Shown here piece by piece: positions 1,456-54,967 of a stretch of DNA of 64,000 bases (positions are counted from its first letter, which is position 1; every line of letters starts with the position of its first letter). A program made the translations under genes and the position numbers. This DNA comes from Planctomycetaceae bacterium (lineage in GTDB: Bacteria > Planctomycetota > Planctomycetia > Planctomycetales > Planctomycetaceae), in assembly GCA_016795145.1 (NCBI GenBank), contig JAEUII010000347.1, forward strand, positions 1 to 64,000, in the 5' to 3' direction. The notes under the pieces were generated by a model that did not search any database, was not told the origin of the DNA, and saw only the letters and a program-made list of their open reading frames with translations.

Positions 1456-3017
1456 CACAGCCTGAGACGCAGTGTGCGAAAGGAACTCCGCCGCAGGACG
1501 GTAAGCCCGGTCGGTTTGCAGTGAGCGTGCTGGTTGTTGCGCTGGTCAGTTGCATTGGTCTTATGCTGCCGATGCTGTTTGCGGGACCTTTGGTTTTGGA
1601 TGAGTATGGCACTTACTGGATAGCGGGAGATGGGCCACTGTCGTTGTGGGAACGCAGTCTGAACTACGAGAACATTCCTCCGCTGGCGCCGGCCATCAAT
1701 CGGTTGTTTCTGAGGCTGTTCGGTGAATCTGAGTTTGTGTTCCGACTTCCTTCTGCTCTGTGCTACGTCGCATCGATCGCTTTGATCTTTCAGCTTGGTC
1801 GCCGAGTCAAGGATGCAGACTTTGGTGCCCTACTGGCTCTGATCCTGGCATGGCATCCTGTTCTGCTGGATGAAGTTCGTATTGCACGGTGTTATGGACT
1901 GACACTGCTGTTGTCGATTGCTGTCCTTCATTCGACAGTACTTTGGATCAAGTCCCTGGAGAGTACTCGTTATCCGCTCATCTGGGCATTGTCATCAGTC
2001 TTGCTGATCTGGACACATTACCTGAATGTCCTCCTAGTCCTGATGACATCTGTTCCGCTCGCGTGGTACCTCTTTAGCGATTCATTTTATGGAAAAAACA
2101 AACTGCTCTTGATGTGGGCGATCATTGGCTGCTGCGTGTATCCGCTATTGCCGTCTCTCATCAGGATGTCCGTCTGGGGTGAGTATTTTGGATTTCAAAC
2201 GGAAGCCAGCGTGACAGAAACTGTCTCGTCATTCTGGTGGGCTGGTTTGCCAGCAGCACTGGTCGCCAGGTACGTGTTCCATCGTGGCGGCTATTTGAAT
2301 TCGTCTTCCCGGAACACAGGGAAGCGGCTGCGATGGGTTTTGTTTTTCTGTTGTGTTGTGCCGATGCTGGGGGCCATCCTCTTCTGTCGCGGCGATTTCG
2401 CAAGTCTCGCGAATCCTCGTTATCGAACGTGCGTTGAAGCAGCGGGAATTTGCCTGTGGCTCGGAATTGTCTCAAAACAACAAAAACCAATTCATAGTAT
2501 TGCCGTCGTTTGTATCGGGCTTGTGGTCACGTGGATTGGCTGTGGGCACCTGCCATGGCATCCCAAACGTCTCAGCACACCGCAAAGTGCTCAGTGGAAG
2601 GAAATGGCCGTCCGCATCCAGTCAGACGGCCATTCGGAACAGACAATCTTTGTTCAGAGCGGTCTTGGTGAAGCGGCCCTGCTGCGCGACTTCTTTGCCG
2701 ATGATGTACTGCAGGACTATGTGGCATGTCGGATGGGGCGAATGTATGTCAAAGGGGACCATCGTCGAATTGGACTCCCATTCGTGTGGAACCTAAACCC
2801 TGAGATGAACCAATGGTACAGGGATCAGCTTCGAGGGATCGCAGCTTCGCGGACAAACAGTTTCTGGCTGGCGGCGGCGACCGACACGGATCTCAATGAA
2901 ACATCAAGTCTCTACTTCGAAGAGATGGCCCGCGAAGAAGGATTTGAAATGTCCCAAAGTCACGTACTTCCGAAAGCAAAGCTGATACTGTTTCAGCACA
3001 GGAACCCTCAGCCGTGA
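1452..3017 (+). CDS. GT39/ArnT-like membrane glycosyltransferase
   Basis: This 521-residue polytopic membrane protein has about ten hydrophobic segments. An LDEYGTYW motif sits in the first large loop (D50-E51), at the place of the catalytic acidic pair of PMT/ArnT/GT39 enzymes, which use polyprenyl-phosphate sugars on the outer face of the membrane. FRLPSALCYVASIALIFQLGRR and the ARCYG segment are typical of the PMT_2 domain, and a soluble C-terminal domain follows. The ATG at 1452 is chosen over an upstream in-frame ATG at 1386 because it overlaps the preceding TGA (ATGA) and has GGGAGG just upstream. It ends inside a GTGA overlap with the next methyltransferase. It probably transfers a sugar to lipid, glycan or protein; the acceptor is unknown. 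Confidence 0.82.
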   Translation: MTQPETQCAKGTPPQDGKPGRFAVSVLVVALVSCIGLMLPMLFAGPLVLDEYGTYWIAGDGPLSLWERSLNYENIPPLAPAINRLFLRLFGESEFVFRLPSALCYVASIALIFQLGRRVKDADFGALLALILAWHPVLLDEVRIARCYGLTLLLSIAVLHSTVLWIKSLESTRYPLIWALSSVLLIWTHYLNVLLVLMTSVPLAWYLFSDSFYGKNKLLLMWAIIGCCVYPLLPSLIRMSVWGEYFGFQTEASVTETVSSFWWAGLPAALVARYVFHRGGYLNSSSRNTGKRLRWVLFFCCVVPMLGAILFCRGDFASLANPRYRTCVEAAGICLWLGIVSKQQKPIHSIAVVCIGLVVTWIGCGHLPWHPKRLSTPQSAQWKEMAVRIQSDGHSEQTIFVQSGLGEAALLRDFFADDVLQDYVACRMGRMYVKGDHRRIGLPFVWNLNPEMNQWYRDQLRGIAASRTNSFWLAAATDTDLNETSSLYFEEMAREEGFEMSQSHVLPKAKLILFQHRNPQP

Positions 3018-3655
3018 CGAAGGATCACCGCTCTTCCACAATGGAGCTGTTTGTTCGCTGGCTCGCATCGATCCCGAGTGTGTTTGATGGGCTTCGATGG
3101 ATTCTGGAAGGTGGCTATCGTGGACACGAATCCGTATTTCGCATCGAACTTAGCAATGCAGTTGTCTCCGAAACATCGCAGCGCGTTCTTGACATCGGTT
3201 GTGGTACAGGACTCCACGCGCCGAGGTTCAAGGCAGACTGTTACCGCGGGGTTGATCTGTCGGATCGTTACGTTCAGGCGGCTCGCAGAAAGTACCCGGC
3301 CCATCAGTTCGATGTGGGTGATGCCCGCAAACTCGTTTTCGGCGATGACTCCTTCCAGACAATCCTGATCTCCGGACTGCTTCATCATCTGAACGACGAA
3401 GATGCCCTTGCCGTGCTGCGAGAAGCCGCGCGCGTTCTGAAACCTGGAGGATCGATTGTGATCTGGGAGGACATTCCAACGACCAGTTTATGGAATCCTG
3501 TTGGAGCCATGATTCATCGACTGGATCAGGGAGACTGGATTCGGACTCCGGATCAATATCGGCAACTCATCGAGCCATCATTCTGCATCGAGAGTGAACG
3601 AACATTTCGCAGCGGGTTCATGGACTACGTTGTATTTCTCGCCAGACCAAAGTGA
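3014..3655 (+). CDS. Class I SAM-dependent methyltransferase (UbiE-like)
   Basis: This 213-residue protein starts at GTG 3014, overlapping the glycosyltransferase stop as GTGA; an internal ATG at 3041 is the alternative. Motif I is VLDIGCGTGLH (about residues 58-68), followed by GVDLSDRYV (end of strand 2), DVGDARKL, then DSFQTILISGLLHHLND and VLKPGGSIVIWEDI, the full Methyltransf_11 pattern. It should methylate a small molecule or lipid-linked intermediate. It is the last gene of the four-gene operon and faces the minus-strand lipoprotein gene across a 35-bp gap. Two methyltransferases in one glycan operon suggest a multiply methylated sugar; that is inference. Confidence 0.88.
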   Translation: MTKDHRSSTMELFVRWLASIPSVFDGLRWILEGGYRGHESVFRIELSNAVVSETSQRVLDIGCGTGLHAPRFKADCYRGVDLSDRYVQAARRKYPAHQFDVGDARKLVFGDDSFQTILISGLLHHLNDEDALAVLREAARVLKPGGSIVIWEDIPTTSLWNPVGAMIHRLDQGDWIRTPDQYRQLIEPSFCIESERTFRSGFMDYVVFLARPK

Positions 3656-3656
3656 C

Positions 3657-3683
3657 TTTGGCCTCACACAGGCTCATGCCAAA
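3657..3683. terminator. Possible short hairpin between convergent genes
   Basis: TTTGGC (3657-3662) and GCCAAA (3678-3683) can pair across a 15-nt loop in the 35-bp gap between convergent stop codons. There is no convincing U-tract on the plus strand, so a bidirectional terminator is only possible. Confidence 0.25.
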
Positions 3684-3690
3684 ACACTGG

Positions 3691-4656
3691 TCAGGGAGAC
3701 GGAGGAGCAGGCAGTGGTTCTGCATTTTCGACAGGAGCTGGAGTTGTGATGACCGACGTCGGAGGGCACATGACGACGGCTGGTTCGGGCTGAGGCGGAC
3801 CGAATTTCGGCGGCGGTGAAAAGAGCCAGTAGGAGCACTTCGTCCAGAAGCCGAGTTCTTTTGGTGCCGGCGGATGGGTTGTCAGGTAATACCATTCTGC
3901 GACATCCAGCGAGATCTCATTGATGAAGGCTCGCGGACTGTTGTGGCCTGGATCAGGATCCGCCGGTCGGGCTTCACCAAAAATTCGATGTCGGATTTTC
4001 CGTTTTGGCTCAGGTTCCAGCAGGCCATATTCTTCAGCCGACCAGGTCGTCGTTGTGTGTTGAATGCACGCCTGAGTTTCGCCGTCCAGGAGCTTTATCT
4101 CCATCGTCGCGCGAAACGGAAAGTAGGGATGATATTCCACGACTCGAACCACAAGGATCTGATTCACGACGGGCGGCGTGGGCGTCAGCAGCAGGGGATT
4201 TGGAGACTGGGGGGGAGGATTCGTATTGAGGGGATCCTGAAAGTTGATCGTCAGAATGTCGCCGGTTGGCACGGGTGCCAATGGTGTTGCCGTAGCAAGG
4301 TGGCTTGGCGGGAGGCTGGCAAGAGGCACAACAGACAGCGATGCTCCACAGAGCTGTAGTTCGCGATGGATGGCCACTCCAAGGTCGGAAGCAAACTTCA
4401 CGTGGATTGGCAGATCCGCGGACTGCATTGCAAGCCCCAGACGACTTGCCGGGTCTCCGAGCGATGGAATAATTGTTCGGTCACCGTGCTTATCTTCAAT
4501 CAACGTATGAGCCGGGTATCGAGTTTGAATCGCAGGGACACGCGCTGATTCCATCATCTCCGGACCGCGGCATCCTGAGAGCAGGCAGGCGATCATGATG
4601 GCGGCGATTTGTCCCCGCCGGCACGGAATTGCGATTCCCTGATTCAGTGCAGACAT
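3691..4656 (-). CDS. Proline-rich lipoprotein of unknown function, end of the flagellar operon
   Basis: This 321-residue protein has a basic N-terminus, a hydrophobic stretch and a lipobox LLSGC near residues 25-29, so it should be exported and lipid-anchored. The middle (PTGDILTINFQDPL; NQILVVRVVEYHPYFPFRATMEIKLLDGETQ) looks like a beta-rich domain; proline-rich segments flank it and form the C-terminus. Its ATG overlaps the upstream lipoprotein stop as TGATG, so the two are coupled. It is the last gene of the minus-strand run that begins with fliL. A role in anchoring or assembling the flagellum in the envelope is suggested only by position. I do not recognise a named family. Confidence 0.72.
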   Translation of the reverse strand: MSALNQGIAIPCRRGQIAAIMIACLLSGCRGPEMMESARVPAIQTRYPAHTLIEDKHGDRTIIPSLGDPASRLGLAMQSADLPIHVKFASDLGVAIHRELQLCGASLSVVPLASLPPSHLATATPLAPVPTGDILTINFQDPLNTNPPPQSPNPLLLTPTPPVVNQILVVRVVEYHPYFPFRATMEIKLLDGETQACIQHTTTTWSAEEYGLLEPEPKRKIRHRIFGEARPADPDPGHNSPRAFINEISLDVAEWYYLTTHPPAPKELGFWTKCSYWLFSPPPKFGPPQPEPAVVMCPPTSVITTPAPVENAEPLPAPPSP

Positions 4657-6700: not shown

Positions 6701-8830
6701 TCATGCTGCCTGAGCTGAGCCTCGTAACGCCGGATTGTCCGCCGGAGTTTCTGCCCCAATGATCTCATCAAACTGCAGCATCACCGCGGCATCGATGACA
6801 AGGTCATTGGGAATTTCCTGGTAGGCAATAACTCCGACATCCGGAGCTGTTCTTGCCAGCAGTCGTTTCATTGGTCGTCGAACGCGCTGATCCACAAGCA
6901 CGGCCAGTGGCTGCTGTCTGCGTTCAGAGTCCTTCCATGCCTTGCTGACCGCTTCAATCAGTCGTGTCAAAGGCCCAGCTCCGAGAGCAAGCTGGTCCTG
7001 GTGAAGCGATTGACGCAGTCGGGTATCCAGCTTTGGCTCCATCGAGAGGACTCGAAGTCGCCCATCGCTGCCTCGGAATCGCTCACAGACAAGACGTCCC
7101 AGATCAATACGAACGTGGTCGGTCAGGTCTTCCGTCGTCTTTGACGATGGAGCATGATTCACGATCGATTCCAGAATCAGCGTAATGTCGGCCAGCGGAA
7201 TGCGATCCTCCGCCAGCTGGACAAGCACCTGATGCAGCGTGCCCATACGAATCACCTCCGGTTTGATTTCATCCACAATGGTCGGGGCGAATTCCTTTGC
7301 CCGATCCAGCATTTGTTTCAGGGCTTCGCGAGTCAGCAGCTCGTGCGCAAATCGTTTCAGAATCTCACCCAGGTGAGTGATCAGAACGCTGAGAGGATCC
7401 ACAACGGTGCATCCATGAACTTCCGCAAGCCGCCGGTTTTCCTGGGCGATCCATCGAGCTGTCAGTCCAAACGCAGGCTCAACAGTAGCCTCACCTGTCA
7501 GATTCACAGGGCGGCCTTCGGGAAGAATGGCCATCAGCTGTTCGGTGCGAAGTTCACCGCCAGCCACTTTTCGACCGGCAACAAGAATTCGATACTCTTC
7601 CGGCTGAAGCAGAAGGTTGCTGTTCACGCGAATGGGAGGAACCCATACGCCCTGTGTTCGTGAAAACTCTCGACGCAGAGCGGTGATGCGTTCCGACAGA
7701 CCTTTGACTTTCTTGCTCTGAATGAACGGAACCAGTCTGGCACCCACTTCCACGACGGCACGATCAGTCACCAGGAATTCATCCAGATGGCGCTCATCGT
7801 CCGGCTGTCCTGGACCACCGTTGGGATCTGTGCCTTCAGGAACTTGAGGTGCGGCAGGAACTGGTTTGCGTCGATTGGCCAGCAGCAGCAGTCCGGCAGA
7901 AACACCAAGGAACGGCAGCTTTGGCAAACCTGGCATCATCGCAATCAGTGCAAGGATGGCAGCACCAATCCAGATCGGGCGTTCTGACTTGAACAGCTGC
8001 CCCTGGATTTCGTCGCCAAGACTGTCGTCCGATGTAGTTTTCGTCACCAGAACACCAGCGGTCGTTGCTATCACGAGTGCTGGAATCTGAGTAACGAGAC
8101 CATCGCCGACGGAAAGAATGGAATAGGTTCGAATGGACTCAACCAGAGTCTTTCCGTTTACGACGCCCATGATGACGCCGCCAACCAGGTTGACTCCCGT
8201 GATGATCAGTCCGGCGATCGCATCACCGCGAACGAATTTGCTGGCACCGTCCATCGCCCCGTAGAACTCAGTCTCTCTCGACAGTTCTTCGCGACGACGT
8301 CGTGCTTCTTTATCGTTGATTGATCCCGCATTCAGCTCTGCATCGATGGCCATCTGCTTGCCAGGCATCGCATCCAGAGTGAATCGAGCAGCAACTTCGG
8401 CGATTCGACCGGCACCTTTTGTGATCACCATGAACTGGATGGTGACAAGGATCAGGAAGATCACGAGTCCCACAACCAGCTGCCCACCGACGACGTAGTT
8501 GCCGAATGCCGTCACGATATGCCCGGCGTCGCCATCCAGCAGAATCAGTCGCGTCGTCGCAACGTTCAGGGAGAGTCGGTAAAGCGTCAGCAGCAGCAGC
8601 AGTGACGGGAAGACCGTCAGTTCCAGGGCTCGCTTTGCGCTGAGAGTGACCAGCAAAAGGAGAGTCGTGGCGGCGAGGTTCGCTGCCAGAAGAACGTCCA
8701 AAAGCCACTGCGGCAACGGAACCAGCATCACCACAAGGCCAATGATCATCCCGAATGACAGCAGAGTCTCGCTCTGCTGCATCCAGCCGGATGGGCCTGA
8801 GGTTTTTGCGGTTACCGCCGGGGCTGACAT
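6701..8830 (-). CDS. flhA: Flagellar biosynthesis protein FlhA
   Basis: This 709-residue protein has the normal FlhA length. The N-terminal half holds about eight membrane helices and FHIPEP-family blocks: YRLSLNVATTRLILL, GKQMAIDAELNAG, RRREELSRETEFYGAMDGASKFVRGDAIAGL. The C-terminal cytoplasmic domain (about residue 360 on) includes EDRIPLADITLILESIVNHAP and a conserved end. FlhA is the largest ring component of the flagellar type III export gate; it couples proton flow to export and binds chaperone-substrate complexes. It is directly preceded by fliP (46 bp) with no fliQ, fliR or flhB between, which is unusual. ATG 8830 has only a weak upstream GGAA. Confidence 0.97.
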   Translation of the reverse strand: MSAPAVTAKTSGPSGWMQQSETLLSFGMIIGLVVMLVPLPQWLLDVLLAANLAATTLLLLVTLSAKRALELTVFPSLLLLLTLYRLSLNVATTRLILLDGDAGHIVTAFGNYVVGGQLVVGLVIFLILVTIQFMVITKGAGRIAEVAARFTLDAMPGKQMAIDAELNAGSINDKEARRRREELSRETEFYGAMDGASKFVRGDAIAGLIITGVNLVGGVIMGVVNGKTLVESIRTYSILSVGDGLVTQIPALVIATTAGVLVTKTTSDDSLGDEIQGQLFKSERPIWIGAAILALIAMMPGLPKLPFLGVSAGLLLLANRRKPVPAAPQVPEGTDPNGGPGQPDDERHLDEFLVTDRAVVEVGARLVPFIQSKKVKGLSERITALRREFSRTQGVWVPPIRVNSNLLLQPEEYRILVAGRKVAGGELRTEQLMAILPEGRPVNLTGEATVEPAFGLTARWIAQENRRLAEVHGCTVVDPLSVLITHLGEILKRFAHELLTREALKQMLDRAKEFAPTIVDEIKPEVIRMGTLHQVLVQLAEDRIPLADITLILESIVNHAPSSKTTEDLTDHVRIDLGRLVCERFRGSDGRLRVLSMEPKLDTRLRQSLHQDQLALGAGPLTRLIEAVSKAWKDSERRQQPLAVLVDQRVRRPMKRLLARTAPDVGVIAYQEIPNDLVIDAAVMLQFDEIIGAETPADNPALRGSAQAA

Positions 8831-8876
8831 AGGGACAATTCCAGAAAGAGGAGTGATTCAGAACGACAGCGAATCG

Positions 8877-9554
8877 TCAGTGGAAGCTTTGCCCAAGCAC
8901 TTTGGAGATCAGTTGCCACCCATCGACCATAACAAACAACAGAATCTTGAATGGTGTCGAGATGACCATCGGGGGCATCATCATCATTCCAAGTGACATG
9001 AGGATGACGGACACGACGAGGTCAATCAGAATGAACGGGATGTAGAGACAGAATCCCATGATGAAGGCTGTCTTCAGTTCGCTGATGACATAGGCCGGAA
9101 TCAGAACAGGAAACGGTGTGTCCGCCGGGGTTTGAATCCTGGTAACACTTGCCATCTTCGCGAACAGAGCAATGTCAGCTTTTCGAGTCTGGCGGATCAT
9201 GAAGTCATGCAGTGCAGCACGGCTGATCCGCCATGCGACCTGACCGTCGATCACGTTACTCAGATAAGGCCGAACGGCGTCCTGTTCAATGCGTGTGACC
9301 GTGGGACCCATGACGAAGAGCGTCAGGAACATCGACAGTCCAAGCACGACCTGTGTCGGGGGAATTTCCTGAGTCGACAGAGCTCGTCGTACAAACGACA
9401 GCACGATGACGATGCGTGTGAACGCCGTCATTGTCACCAGTGCCGCAGACATCAGGGTCATCGCGCCGAGGAACAGCGCGACCTTGATTTGCGGCGAGAG
9501 AGTCTGGAATCCGTCTGATTCCAGAACCTGCTGTACTGTTTCTGCCGAGTCCAT
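8877..9554 (-). CDS. fliP: Flagellar export gate protein FliP
   Basis: From ATG 9554 (AAAGG eight bases upstream) the product is 225 residues; a GTG at 9599 is a weaker alternative. Family blocks are complete: MTAFTRIVIVLSFVRRALSTQEIPPTQVVLGLSMFLTLFVMGP, PAYVISELKTAFIMGFCLYIPFILIDLVVSVILMSLGMMMMPP and PFKILLFVMVDGW. FliP forms the core of the export channel with FliQ and FliR in the inner membrane. The long cleavable N-terminal signal of enteric FliP is short or absent. fliO lies upstream and flhA downstream; fliQ and fliR must be elsewhere. Confidence 0.97.
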   Translation of the reverse strand: MDSAETVQQVLESDGFQTLSPQIKVALFLGAMTLMSAALVTMTAFTRIVIVLSFVRRALSTQEIPPTQVVLGLSMFLTLFVMGPTVTRIEQDAVRPYLSNVIDGQVAWRISRAALHDFMIRQTRKADIALFAKMASVTRIQTPADTPFPVLIPAYVISELKTAFIMGFCLYIPFILIDLVVSVILMSLGMMMMPPMVISTPFKILLFVMVDGWQLISKVLGQSFH

Positions 9555-9659
9555 TCGTGCAACCTTTAACTGAACCTGATCCCTGGAAGACGAGATCACA
9601 TCCTGTGATGCCGTCTGACTCTGTTCCTAAATCGTTCGCTGTATTTGTCGTATCCTCGT

Positions 9660-10703
9660 TCAGAGTTCTGCGATTGTCTGTCCGTGTGCAATGGGTTCCG
9701 TTGGCATTGGCTCGTGCATTTCCCTTTGAAGCTCATCCGGGAAGTTCATCGGAGCCAGTACCAGTGTTTTGATTCCGCCTGCGTCCGCTGCGACAAGGGC
9801 GCGAAGCCCGCCGATCTCGATCAATGAGACAATTCGACCGGGGCCGACCGACAGTGTTTCCACGACACGTGACTGACTGCCGGAGGCCGGAAGCAGTCCG
9901 CGTGCTCGTTGCCATCGACGAATGCCAAGAACCGCAAGGATTAGCAGACAGAAGGCGATCACCAGCCACACGGCAGCGCGAACGATGACGTTGGTCGGTG
10001 ATGTCGCAAGCGTGACTTCCGGCGAATGACCTGGAGAAGTTCCGGATCCGCTGGATCGTCGTTCCGGTTCAAGATCCAGGAATGGTGCGTTGTCTTCGTT
10101 CGTGCTGTCAGAAGAGTCTGTGCCTTCAGCCGACTCGCTGGCCACCGTAGCAACCGGATTCTGCGATTCCGTTACAGCAGAGTCTTCAAATGTTGCGGAC
10201 GCCTGCTGAATGTGAGTTGAACCGGCAGACGACCTGCGTGGAGTGGCTGCTTCCGGTGTCTTTCGGAGGGCAGGCTCTGCGACAGGATTCGATGTTGCGT
10301 TCTTCTTTACTGACGCTTCGGCCACCTTGCGCTGCAATCGAATCTGAAGCGATTCTTCGGTGGAAACTTCCTGCGATGCGGTTGAATCACTGACTTCGTT
10401 GTTCTGATCTCGAGCCTGCCAGCTGCTGGATGAGGTGGATTGTTCACTCTCTTCAGTTGTGTGGCGTGTTTCGCTCGATGAACGTGCGCTTTGAGCTTTG
10501 ATTCGGCTAAGAACTTCCGGGGGAATTGTGTTTTCTGATGCGGAAGAGGACCGGCCCCGAGTCGCTGACTGTGCGAAGACAGAATTAACAGAACTGCAGA
10601 TGAACAGACCCGCAAAGAGGCTCAACAGCAACGAACGAACTGGCACGACCGGTGACGACCGGTGTGTCAGATGGGTTCGAGTGTTGCGTCCTTCCGTGAT
10701 CAC
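9660..10703 (-). CDS. fliO: FliO-like flagellar export apparatus assembly protein with long Ser-rich ectodomain
   Basis: This 347-residue product starts at GTG 10703 with AGGAAGG upstream. It has a signal-like N-terminal hydrophobic segment ending near VFAQ, a roughly 190-residue Ser/Thr/Glu-rich low-complexity region, a membrane helix (about residues 230-255, AAVWLVIAFCLLILAVLGIRRW) and the FliO cytoplasmic domain (VVETLSVGPGRIVSLIEIGGLRALVAAD). FliO helps assemble the FliP ring. Typical FliO proteins are 100-220 residues, so the disordered periplasmic region is an extension. Position between fliN and fliP supports the call. Confidence 0.85.
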   Translation of the reverse strand: MITEGRNTRTHLTHRSSPVVPVRSLLLSLFAGLFICSSVNSVFAQSATRGRSSSASENTIPPEVLSRIKAQSARSSSETRHTTEESEQSTSSSSWQARDQNNEVSDSTASQEVSTEESLQIRLQRKVAEASVKKNATSNPVAEPALRKTPEAATPRRSSAGSTHIQQASATFEDSAVTESQNPVATVASESAEGTDSSDSTNEDNAPFLDLEPERRSSGSGTSPGHSPEVTLATSPTNVIVRAAVWLVIAFCLLILAVLGIRRWQRARGLLPASGSQSRVVETLSVGPGRIVSLIEIGGLRALVAADAGGIKTLVLAPMNFPDELQREMHEPMPTEPIAHGQTIAEL

Positions 10704-51828: not shown

Positions 51829-53877
51829 CTAATACACCCACGGACGAGCCTGCTTGATGGCGACTTTGCCGTCTTTGGTGATCTTGAACTCGATCTCCAT
51901 GGCGAACTTGTCGGTGTCGGATTTGCCGTAGAGCTTCTGGAAGCGTCCGTGGATCTTCGCCATGTAGCGTCGAAGATCTTCCAGCTGATTCTGGTTCAGG
52001 ATTGGCTTGCCATCAGCCGCTTTTCGAACGACCTGCTGGCCGTCTTCTTTCCACCAGCCCAGCAGAATTTCCTCAGGCGATGAATCCTGATCCGGGTTCG
52101 TGACCAGGTCTTCTCCGACCTGAGCATTCACGTAGTAGTTGCCGTCGGTCTCGTAGAGAACATCGTCCGTGACAGCCACACCGTTTGCGAGTTCATCGCT
52201 AAAATTCGGATGCAGCAGAACGCCCATCGCCACCTGCATATGATCGACTCGATAAAACTCCCGCTCTTCAAACGCGCGGAAGTTCCAGAGGCTTGCGTAG
52301 ACCTGTTTGATCGATGAGGACAGATGGCCCTCGTCAGGACGATGAGTATACGAATCATAAAGGCCTGCCCCGCTGAAGCCTGGAAGGTCTTCGTTGTTGG
52401 TGCTGGAACGGCAGCGAATCCCTGTTCCTTCGGGGAACGTTTTTTGAATGTCGGAGATGGCGGTCATCATCCATTCGGGCATCGTGCCGCCTTCGATCAT
52501 GTCACGAATCTTCTTCAGCTCAGCTTCCTGATTCTCGCGGCTCTGGGAAAACGATTCGCTCTTCAGAACATCAGCCACTTTTTCATAGAAGCCGTTGTGC
52601 TTCATGAATTCGTCATAGAAATAGAACGGCACTGCGGCACCGTTGGGTACCGTCCCTTCCGGGAAACCAAACGACAGCATTGTCGCGATGTTGGTTGTCT
52701 TCACACCAAAGGCTGACGAATCCTGGAACTGAATTTTTGAGAGTGGCAGGATCTCCTTCTTCTCCAGATCACGCTTCAGCAGCTGAGGCTCTGAAGGACG
52801 CAGAGCAGAAAACCACGTGTCGACTTCCTGCTGAGTGGCTTCGCGAATCTTGTAGCCCTGTGAATTCACCTCGTATCGTACATACTTGCCCAGCAGAGAC
52901 TTCACATCGTCGGCCTGAAGAGCATTCGACACATAGGCGTTGGGAACTTTGTCCTGCACAGCTCGCAGATTGACGTGTGACAGTGGCGTCTGTCGAACTT
53001 CCGTGATCACACCAGCAACGCGAGGCATCTGATTTGGCAGAGTTTTGCAGATTACAATGTCGCGCTGATTCGGAAGCGAAGTCCCTTCCATCACAACCAG
53101 TCGACCGAACGATTCGCCGGGGTTCATTGGCAGGAAAGCAATGTCGCCGTAAATGTCACTGTCGAGATACACAGCCACATCGGAATTCGCGTACTTGTCC
53201 TTTTCAGACTCGTAAAGGCGAACGTTGCCTGGCAGCGGATGGAAGGCCAGCTTTCCAGCAACGAACGGCATCGTCTTCAGGATCGTGTCCCGCGCGAATT
53301 TGATCTCTTCGAACGAGTACTGGTCGTTCGGCTGGAAGTCGAAGATGTACAGGCCGACCGTACCGTTGGGGCTGCGAAGTCGAGGCATGTAGCACACCGC
53401 ACCACGCATCATGCGAGTGCCATTACCACCGCCCGGACCGCCGCCACCGCCGGGTCCACCACCGGGGCCGCCGAATCCACCGCGACCTCGGCCGCCACCC
53501 GGTCCGCCCTGCATTCCAATCGCGCCCATGAACTGGGGGTGAGCCTGGTAATTCTGAGTATTCATCCAGTACGTCTTCGCGTTGTCCGACATCGCGTTTT
53601 CGATGATGAACTTCACGAACTCAATCCCGCTCAGGTAGGTATCCATTCTGACGGGTCCCTGGTACGAGAGCTTTTCAAAGGTCTCTCGGTCCGGGACTGA
53701 GGCAACACCCATTTCAAACGGCAACTTGTCCGGTTCGATCTTTTCGCGGTTGCCCTGCTGTCCGCCAAAACCGGGGCCTCCCCCAAAGCCACCACCCGGC
53801 TGAGCATTCACGGATGCGGGACAGATCAGAATTCCGGCCATGATCACACCAAACAAACCAGTTTGAATCGTCTTCAT
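51829..53877 (-). CDS. Secreted phosphohistidine/ATP-binding protein, glucan water dikinase-like
   Basis: From ATG 53877 the product is 682 residues with a signal peptide (1-26, cleaved near VNAQ), a Gly-rich stretch (28-41), an N-terminal domain, a Gly-rich linker (124-153) and, from ~285, a swivelling phosphohistidine-like domain (VAGVITEVRQTPLSHVNLRA, H301) followed by a PPDK/PEP-synthase-type ATP-binding domain (~388-682; GIRCRSSTNNEDLPGFSGAG at 487-506). The order His domain then ATP domain is that of plant glucan water dikinases, not PEP synthase or PPDK. The frame is open upstream to 54204, but no signal peptide would then be N-terminal. An ATP-using enzyme outside the cytoplasm is unexpected. 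Confidence 0.85.
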   Translation of the reverse strand: MKTIQTGLFGVIMAGILICPASVNAQPGGGFGGGPGFGGQQGNREKIEPDKLPFEMGVASVPDRETFEKLSYQGPVRMDTYLSGIEFVKFIIENAMSDNAKTYWMNTQNYQAHPQFMGAIGMQGGPGGGRGRGGFGGPGGGPGGGGGPGGGNGTRMMRGAVCYMPRLRSPNGTVGLYIFDFQPNDQYSFEEIKFARDTILKTMPFVAGKLAFHPLPGNVRLYESEKDKYANSDVAVYLDSDIYGDIAFLPMNPGESFGRLVVMEGTSLPNQRDIVICKTLPNQMPRVAGVITEVRQTPLSHVNLRAVQDKVPNAYVSNALQADDVKSLLGKYVRYEVNSQGYKIREATQQEVDTWFSALRPSEPQLLKRDLEKKEILPLSKIQFQDSSAFGVKTTNIATMLSFGFPEGTVPNGAAVPFYFYDEFMKHNGFYEKVADVLKSESFSQSRENQEAELKKIRDMIEGGTMPEWMMTAISDIQKTFPEGTGIRCRSSTNNEDLPGFSGAGLYDSYTHRPDEGHLSSSIKQVYASLWNFRAFEEREFYRVDHMQVAMGVLLHPNFSDELANGVAVTDDVLYETDGNYYVNAQVGEDLVTNPDQDSSPEEILLGWWKEDGQQVVRKAADGKPILNQNQLEDLRRYMAKIHGRFQKLYGKSDTDKFAMEIEFKITKDGKVAIKQARPWVY

Positions 53878-54145: not shown

Positions 54146-54967
54146 ATGAGCCGTGTTTCTGATGTGTTTTCGTCGACCGTCAAATCCTCTCGAATGGCCT
54201 TCATGCCTTTTGTGACGGCCGGTGACCCGGACCTGGCGACTACTCGCGAAGTGCTTCTGGCTTTACGTGATGCGGGTGTGGACCTGATCGAGCTGGGATT
54301 TCCGTACAGCGATCCAATCGCCGACGGACCAGTGATCCAGGCCTCCTACACCAGAGCGCTGGAAAAAGGTGTTACGGTCGAACAGATCTTCGCGACGATG
54401 GCCTCCGTGAAAGATCAGAACCTGCCACCTGTGCTTGCGATGGTCTCCTTTGCCATCATCTTTCGACATGGACCATCGGAGTTCATTCGAAAGGCGGCGG
54501 AAGTAGGCTTCAGCGGGCTCATTATTCCCGATCTTCCCGCCGAAGAAGCGGACGACACCGGAGCACTTGCGAAGAAACACAACCTGGATCTTGTCCAGCT
54601 GATTGCTCCGACGACGACCGAACACAGAACGCAGCAGATTCTGAAAGCGTCAACAGGCTTTCTGTATTGTATCTCCGTCGCAGGCACGACCGGCGCGCGG
54701 CGAGAACTGCCGGCGGAACTGACCAGTCAGCTTCGGTCTTTGCGAACTCAGTCCCGGCTTCCTCTGGCAGTAGGCTTTGGCATCAGTGGTCCCGATCAGG
54801 TGGCAGGGTTGTCGAATGTCGCTGATGGAGTCATCGTCGGATCGGCGATGGTCAAGCGAATTGCCGACGCGGGCAGCTCAGCCGAAGCCGCGAAGGCTGT
54901 GAAGTCATTTGCGGAAGAAATGAAGTCAGCAGCCGCGAAAGCTCGACCGTCCCTGTCGATCAACTGA
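54146..54967 (+). CDS. trpA: Tryptophan synthase alpha chain
   Basis: This 273-residue protein has the expected length. Catalytic Glu49 (DLIELGFPYSDPIADGPVIQ) and Asp60 are in place, followed by GLIIPDLPAEE, LIAPTTTEHR, FLYCISVAGTTGARREL and VGFGISGPDQV with the phosphate-binding GSAMVKRI. It cleaves indole-3-glycerol phosphate and passes indole to TrpB. trpB is not adjacent; the gene stands alone, divergent from the dikinase-like gene. Confidence 0.97.
   Translation: MSRVSDVFSSTVKSSRMAFMPFVTAGDPDLATTREVLLALRDAGVDLIELGFPYSDPIADGPVIQASYTRALEKGVTVEQIFATMASVKDQNLPPVLAMVSFAIIFRHGPSEFIRKAAEVGFSGLIIPDLPAEEADDTGALAKKHNLDLVQLIAPTTTEHRTQQILKASTGFLYCISVAGTTGARRELPAELTSQLRSLRTQSRLPLAVGFGISGPDQVAGLSNVADGVIVGSAMVKRIADAGSSAEAAKAVKSFAEEMKSAAAKARPSLSIN

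Follow-up and report, generated by a model that had tools for sequence, protein, structure and literature searches.

Dikinases of the PPDK type are viewed as enzymes of the cytosol or plastids that draw on cellular ATP. In the plant enzymes GWD1 and PWD (EC 2.7.9.4 and 2.7.9.5), a phosphohistidine domain stands ahead of a C-terminal PPDK-type ATP-grasp, and the histidine motif of plant glucan water dikinase (GWD) is of the LSHV type. The PEP synthases and pyruvate phosphate dikinases have the same ATP-grasp fold and phosphohistidine chemistry, with the ATP-grasp at the N-terminus, the phosphohistidine domain in the middle and a PEP/pyruvate TIM barrel at the C-terminus. In the cytosolic rifampin phosphotransferases (RPH), the order is ATP-grasp, rifampin domain and His domain. 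Residues Lys22, Arg117 and Thr136 of the Listeria enzyme, RPH-Lm, place the ATP phosphates (PMC4844700).

The locus described here lies in a window of 64,000 nucleotides of planctomycete DNA. The gene at 51829-53877 (-) encodes a protein of 682 residues, and open reading frame, strand and coordinates all proved correct. A signal peptide is followed by an N-terminal domain, a swivel phosphohistidine domain with H301 and a C-terminal PPDK-type ATP-grasp (Table 1). The preliminary description had given this order without mentioning the N-terminal domain. The sequence contains LSHVNLRA, whose histidine is residue 301, and also CRSSTNNEDLPGFSGAG. In Pfam, PPDK_N covers residues 390-679 (E 3.4e-28; 99 bits against a cut-off of 27), and GWD1_pHisD (PF22973) matches residues 287-351 under its cut-off (E 7.8e-5, 22.7 bits, cut-off 27). 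The ATG at 53877, proposed earlier as the start, is likely the true one. An in-frame ATG occurs upstream at 54204, but the longer reading frame would enter, in antisense, a divergent trpA-like gene at 54146-54967 (+). Moreover, the closest homologues have signal-peptide starts of their own at the equivalent position (L067, MRFIFLPAFVVAICAA; L025, MKHLFIVLFVF; L031, MKASFF).

Table 1. Predicted features of the window protein and histidine phosphatase genes at the loci of relatives (L numbers); positions without an L number are those of the window.
Feature	Position	Strand	Basis or context
Sec signal peptide, residues 1-25 (MKTIQTGLFGVIMAGILICPASVNA/QP)	53803..53877	-	sequence; homologues with signal peptides at the equivalent position
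N-terminal domain, ~residues 44-235, with K89 and H113	53173..53748	-	AlphaFold2 pLDDT; invariant residues
Gly/Arg-rich disordered insert within the N-terminal domain, ~residues 126-153	53419..53502	-	pLDDT <50; low-complexity
Swivel phosphohistidine domain, ~residues 245-347	52837..53145	-	PF22973 sub-threshold; structural match to RPH-Lm
H301 in QTPLSHVNLRA, predicted phospho-accepting histidine	52975..52977	-	invariant, 88/88
PPDK-type ATP-grasp, residues 372-682 (K393, R490, D/E661, E663, Q676, R678)	51832..52764	-	PPDK_N; structure; invariance
Histidine phosphatase	L067:7405-8004	+	overlaps dikinase-like gene (Planctomycetales)
Histidine phosphatase	L083:6955-7509	+	adjoins dikinase-like gene
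Histidine phosphatase	L085:8463-9056	-	adjoins dikinase-like gene
Histidine phosphatase	L095:6851-7417	+	adjoins dikinase-like gene
Histidine phosphatase	L098:11660-12208	-	adjoins dikinase-like gene

The likeness to GWD claimed in the preliminary description stands in two respects: the domain order agrees with that of GWD1 and PWD, and PF22973 is the nearest Pfam phosphohistidine model for the window protein. The match is nevertheless weak and sub-threshold, and GWD1_pHisD is found at E<=0.01 in only 13 of 56 family members. In contrast to GWD and PWD, the window protein, with its 682 residues, is exported and has no CFATC redox motif, and Pfam searches with the whole protein or the N-terminal domain gave no match to CBM45, CBM20 or any other carbohydrate-binding module. 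PPDK_N above its cut-off and a catalytic histidine conserved in 88/88 members agree with GWD. Since the score for the curated GWD domain stays below its threshold and the starch-binding modules are missing, the protein was not classed as a GWD. The order itself is not diagnostic, because a signal-less, cytosolic protein encoded on a Streptomyces plasmid (WP_331760287.1, 'PEP/pyruvate-binding domain-containing protein') has the same order and the motifs TPLSH and RSSSNAEDLPGFSAAG, the two sequences being about 27% identical across 70% of the query. In its plasmid (L128:6205-10885, +), this homologue shares a cluster, perhaps a small biosynthetic one, with a second ATP-grasp protein and an MFS transporter.

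Assignment to the PEP synthases or PPDK was rejected as well: the domain order is reversed, the TIM barrel gave no match, and NCBIfam scores were 80-88 against cut-offs of 598-740. A separate PPDK_N protein is encoded elsewhere in the same genome. Rifampin phosphotransferase was likewise excluded (full-length model NF041857, 50 bits against a cut-off of 999), with the His domain of the window protein preceding the ATP-grasp.

The mature protein was modelled with AlphaFold2 using 56 members (mean pLDDT 87.9, pTM 0.83). Model residues 347-657 align with the ATP-grasp of RPH-Lm (5hv1; VIA-align Z 30.7, 2.3 A, 287 residues) and with PEP synthase (2ols; Z 29.9). These two enzymes are the nearest structures to the ATP domain; no GWD structure has been solved (PMC12892837). 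Model residues 220-322 align with the swivel domain of RPH-Lm (5fbu, residues 754-867; Z 10.6, 2.7 A, 97 residues, 24% identity), and a PDB sequence search with the phosphohistidine-domain profile gave no match. The N-terminal domain, for which RPH has no counterpart, reached pLDDT 88.4 when modelled alone (residues 44-245), and its K89, H113, G159 and G175 are invariant in 56 members. It matched nothing in Pfam or in PDB sequences, and fold searches gave nothing above noise (best Foldseek E 0.11; best VIA match, to polyphosphate kinase 1, rejected at Z 4.7). At a guess, by analogy, this domain could be the acceptor-binding part, with K89 and H113 as candidate contacts.

All 88 aligned family members share H301, K393, R490, E663, Q676 and R678; S509 is also invariant, and position 661 is always E or D. 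By alignments and the conserved motif, K393, R490 and S509 correspond to Lys22, Arg117 and Thr136 of RPH-Lm. The protein thus has the features of the PPDK-type phosphohistidine dikinase superfamily, namely an ATP-grasp with the K, R, E, Q and R nucleotide residues and a swivel His domain. The catalytic histidine and intact ATP site of the preliminary description are borne out. Loss of these residues across the family had been named as a result that would speak against it, and no loss was seen, the residues being identical in 88/88.

No orthologue was found among 58 further genomes from its genus, family or class; nearly all hits there span the ATP domain only, consistent with PEP synthases. 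A wider genome collection yielded 185 candidate stretches encoding a relative. The best 80 of these 185 were kept (42-66% identity) and come from Planctomycetota, Poribacteria, Verrucomicrobiota, Bacteroidota and a few Gammaproteobacteria. Further relatives, some of ~1,000-1,900 residues sharing the C-terminal part, turned up in 392 sampled genomes of the phylum. The phosphohistidine/ATP-grasp core is also present in long proteins of planctomycetes that carry FG-GAP repeats and have dockerin-like ends (L105-L127, e.g., L107:334-4374, -). In a quick tree, the window protein and L067, the latter belonging to a Planctomycetales genome, are sisters (support 98) within a mixed Planctomycetota-Verrucomicrobiota clade, and the Poribacteria members form a single clade. 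One Verrucomicrobiales locus (L063) encodes two members ~4 kb apart (1463-3862 and about 8001-9833, +). The patchy spread of the family suggests horizontal transfer. Among phages no full-length relative was found, and plasmids gave only partial Streptomyces homologues. Limited searches of the open-access literature returned no account of such a secreted family and nothing relevant on secreted bacterial GWD-like dikinases. The relatives form a coherent, widespread and apparently undescribed family of secreted dikinase-like proteins.

Export is supported for the family as a whole. By a simple hydropathy rule, not a trained predictor, a signal-peptide-like start was seen in 71/81 members versus 0/16 PEP synthases. 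Among the remaining ten, several show a signal peptide by eye or are incomplete sequences. The T9SS sorting tails of L085 and L075 exceed the curated cut-off of TIGR04183; a search model derived from three tails of this kind detected 22 family members in Bacteroidota, those three included. Relatives are furthermore fused to EF-hands, a P-domain, FG-GAP repeats, CARDB and a sub-threshold dockerin, and calcium-type DxDGDGxDD repeats occur in many Bacteroidota members. These signal peptides, sorting tails and extracellular fusions uphold the export first proposed and make a cytoplasmic location, which would have contradicted it, unlikely. The accompanying idea of a role in the planctomycete periplasm is too narrow, because most members are found outside the planctomycetes and those of Bacteroidota carry cell-surface tails. 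Sequence evidence supports a periplasmic location for the window protein and a cell-surface location for the T9SS-tailed relatives.

Neighbourhoods were clustered over 84 loci. Synteny was lineage-specific, and no conserved operon partner emerged, with one exception: small secreted histidine phosphatases, marked by RHG/RHA and GHS motifs, are the sole neighbour family that stands close to the gene in more than one phylum. PF00300 (His_Phos_1) was above cut-off in the four proteins tested (4/4). The phosphatase gene adjoins the dikinase gene in L083, L085, L090, L095 and L098 and lies about 0.9 kb away in L096. In L092 the dikinase gene runs off the contig, its remainder lying on a second contig, convergent with the phosphatase. 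These seven loci form one Flavobacteriales (Bacteroidota) clade (support 98). The phosphatase is upstream in some and convergent downstream in others; the adjacency therefore outlived a rearrangement. PF00300 genes number only one or two per genome in these Bacteroidota. Outside this clade, L067 has a related phosphatase gene that overlaps the dikinase gene at the latter's end. BLAST with the Flavobacteriales phosphatase found no homologue in the genome of the window protein, and no phosphatase lies near the gene. The histidine phosphatases of that genome were considered as secreted partner and set aside, the C45 gene being ordinary and SixA-like by sequence. As a close homologue is missing there, the partnership is not universal; in some lineages, we infer a functional link between dikinase and phosphatase. 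Sulfatase genes near 11 loci were set aside because they are common in these phyla and have no fixed position. In most lineages, none of the neighbours conserved among the 84 loci reveals a substrate.

Taken together, the protein may be an exported, catalytically competent swivelling-histidine phosphotransferase, i.e., a dikinase, whose phosphate goes to an acceptor outside the cytoplasm, with reversal by the phosphatase in some lineages; we consider this reading equally likely to prove right or wrong. Following Sec export to the periplasm, or to the cell surface in the T9SS-tailed relatives, as the sequences suggest family-wide, the C-terminal ATP-grasp would bind ATP, and the beta-phosphate would pass to H301 of the swivel domain with release of AMP and Pi. 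For these two steps, the invariant residues and the structural similarity to RPH, PEP synthase and PPDK are the guide. The swivel domain would then deliver the phosphate to an acceptor on the family-specific N-terminal domain, and in some lineages the secreted histidine phosphatase encoded next door might remove it again. As a first guess, the acceptor is a surface or matrix glycan, with a surface protein ranked second. To our knowledge, there is no ATP supply outside the inner membrane, which counts against an exported dikinase. A bolder version, rather unlikely in our view, sees in the family extracellular dikinases that, together with the secreted phosphatase in some lineages, use ATP to phosphorylate a surface or matrix polymer reversibly; this system would parallel, outside the cell, the plant pair of GWD and phosphoglucan phosphatase.

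Among the other explanations, an extracytoplasmic ATP scavenger survives best, although it is unlikely. Environmental ATP would phosphorylate H301 with water as the final acceptor, and the resulting AMP and two phosphates would feed phosphate and purine uptake. Such a protein would need no special acceptor, the adjoining secreted phosphatase would suit a scavenging set, and bacteria release ATP to the medium (for example, PMC11335348). For mere hydrolysis, however, an enzyme that works in two steps with a swivel and has a conserved third domain is elaborate, and no nucleotidase or phosphate-transport genes were recognised by eye beside the gene in the window. Distinctly improbable is a role as surface sensor or adhesin, with the fold and nucleotide binding retained but no catalysis. 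The fusions to adhesin-like and calcium-binding modules and the want of an obvious outside ATP source would fit, but a protein that only binds would not be expected to keep H301 and the ATP-site residues invariant in 88 members spanning at least five phyla.

It is very doubtful that the family consists of ATP-driven condensing enzymes which join two molecules through phosphohistidine or ATP-grasp chemistry, like the prodigiosin ligases PigC and RedH. The models of both match the ATP-grasp, and the company of the signal-less Streptomyces homologue points the same way; yet they match this domain only, and no recurrent biosynthetic cluster surrounds the exported family. A true extracellular GWD acting on alpha-glucan is very unlikely: against the shared order of phosphohistidine domain and ATP-grasp and the nearest Pfam model stand the missing carbohydrate-binding module, the sub-threshold GWD score, the equal order in the cytosolic Streptomyces protein, and a neighbourhood in which no starch or glycogen genes were recognised by eye within the window. 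A cytoplasmic protein with a misassigned start is barely credible, as the ATG at 54204 would be its only footing against the trpA-like overlap, the homologues' signal peptides at the equivalent place, and the T9SS tails and extracellular modules of relatives.

That all tested catalytic residues of an exported family are invariant over at least five phyla implies that ATP-dependent phosphotransfer takes place beyond the cytoplasm. Which molecule is phosphorylated on the outside, and what supplies the ATP, are the questions that follow. Phosphotransfer of this kind would touch on extracellular ATP use and on the modification of bacterial surfaces and matrices, as well as on the ecology of marine bacteria associated with particles, biofilms and sponges.
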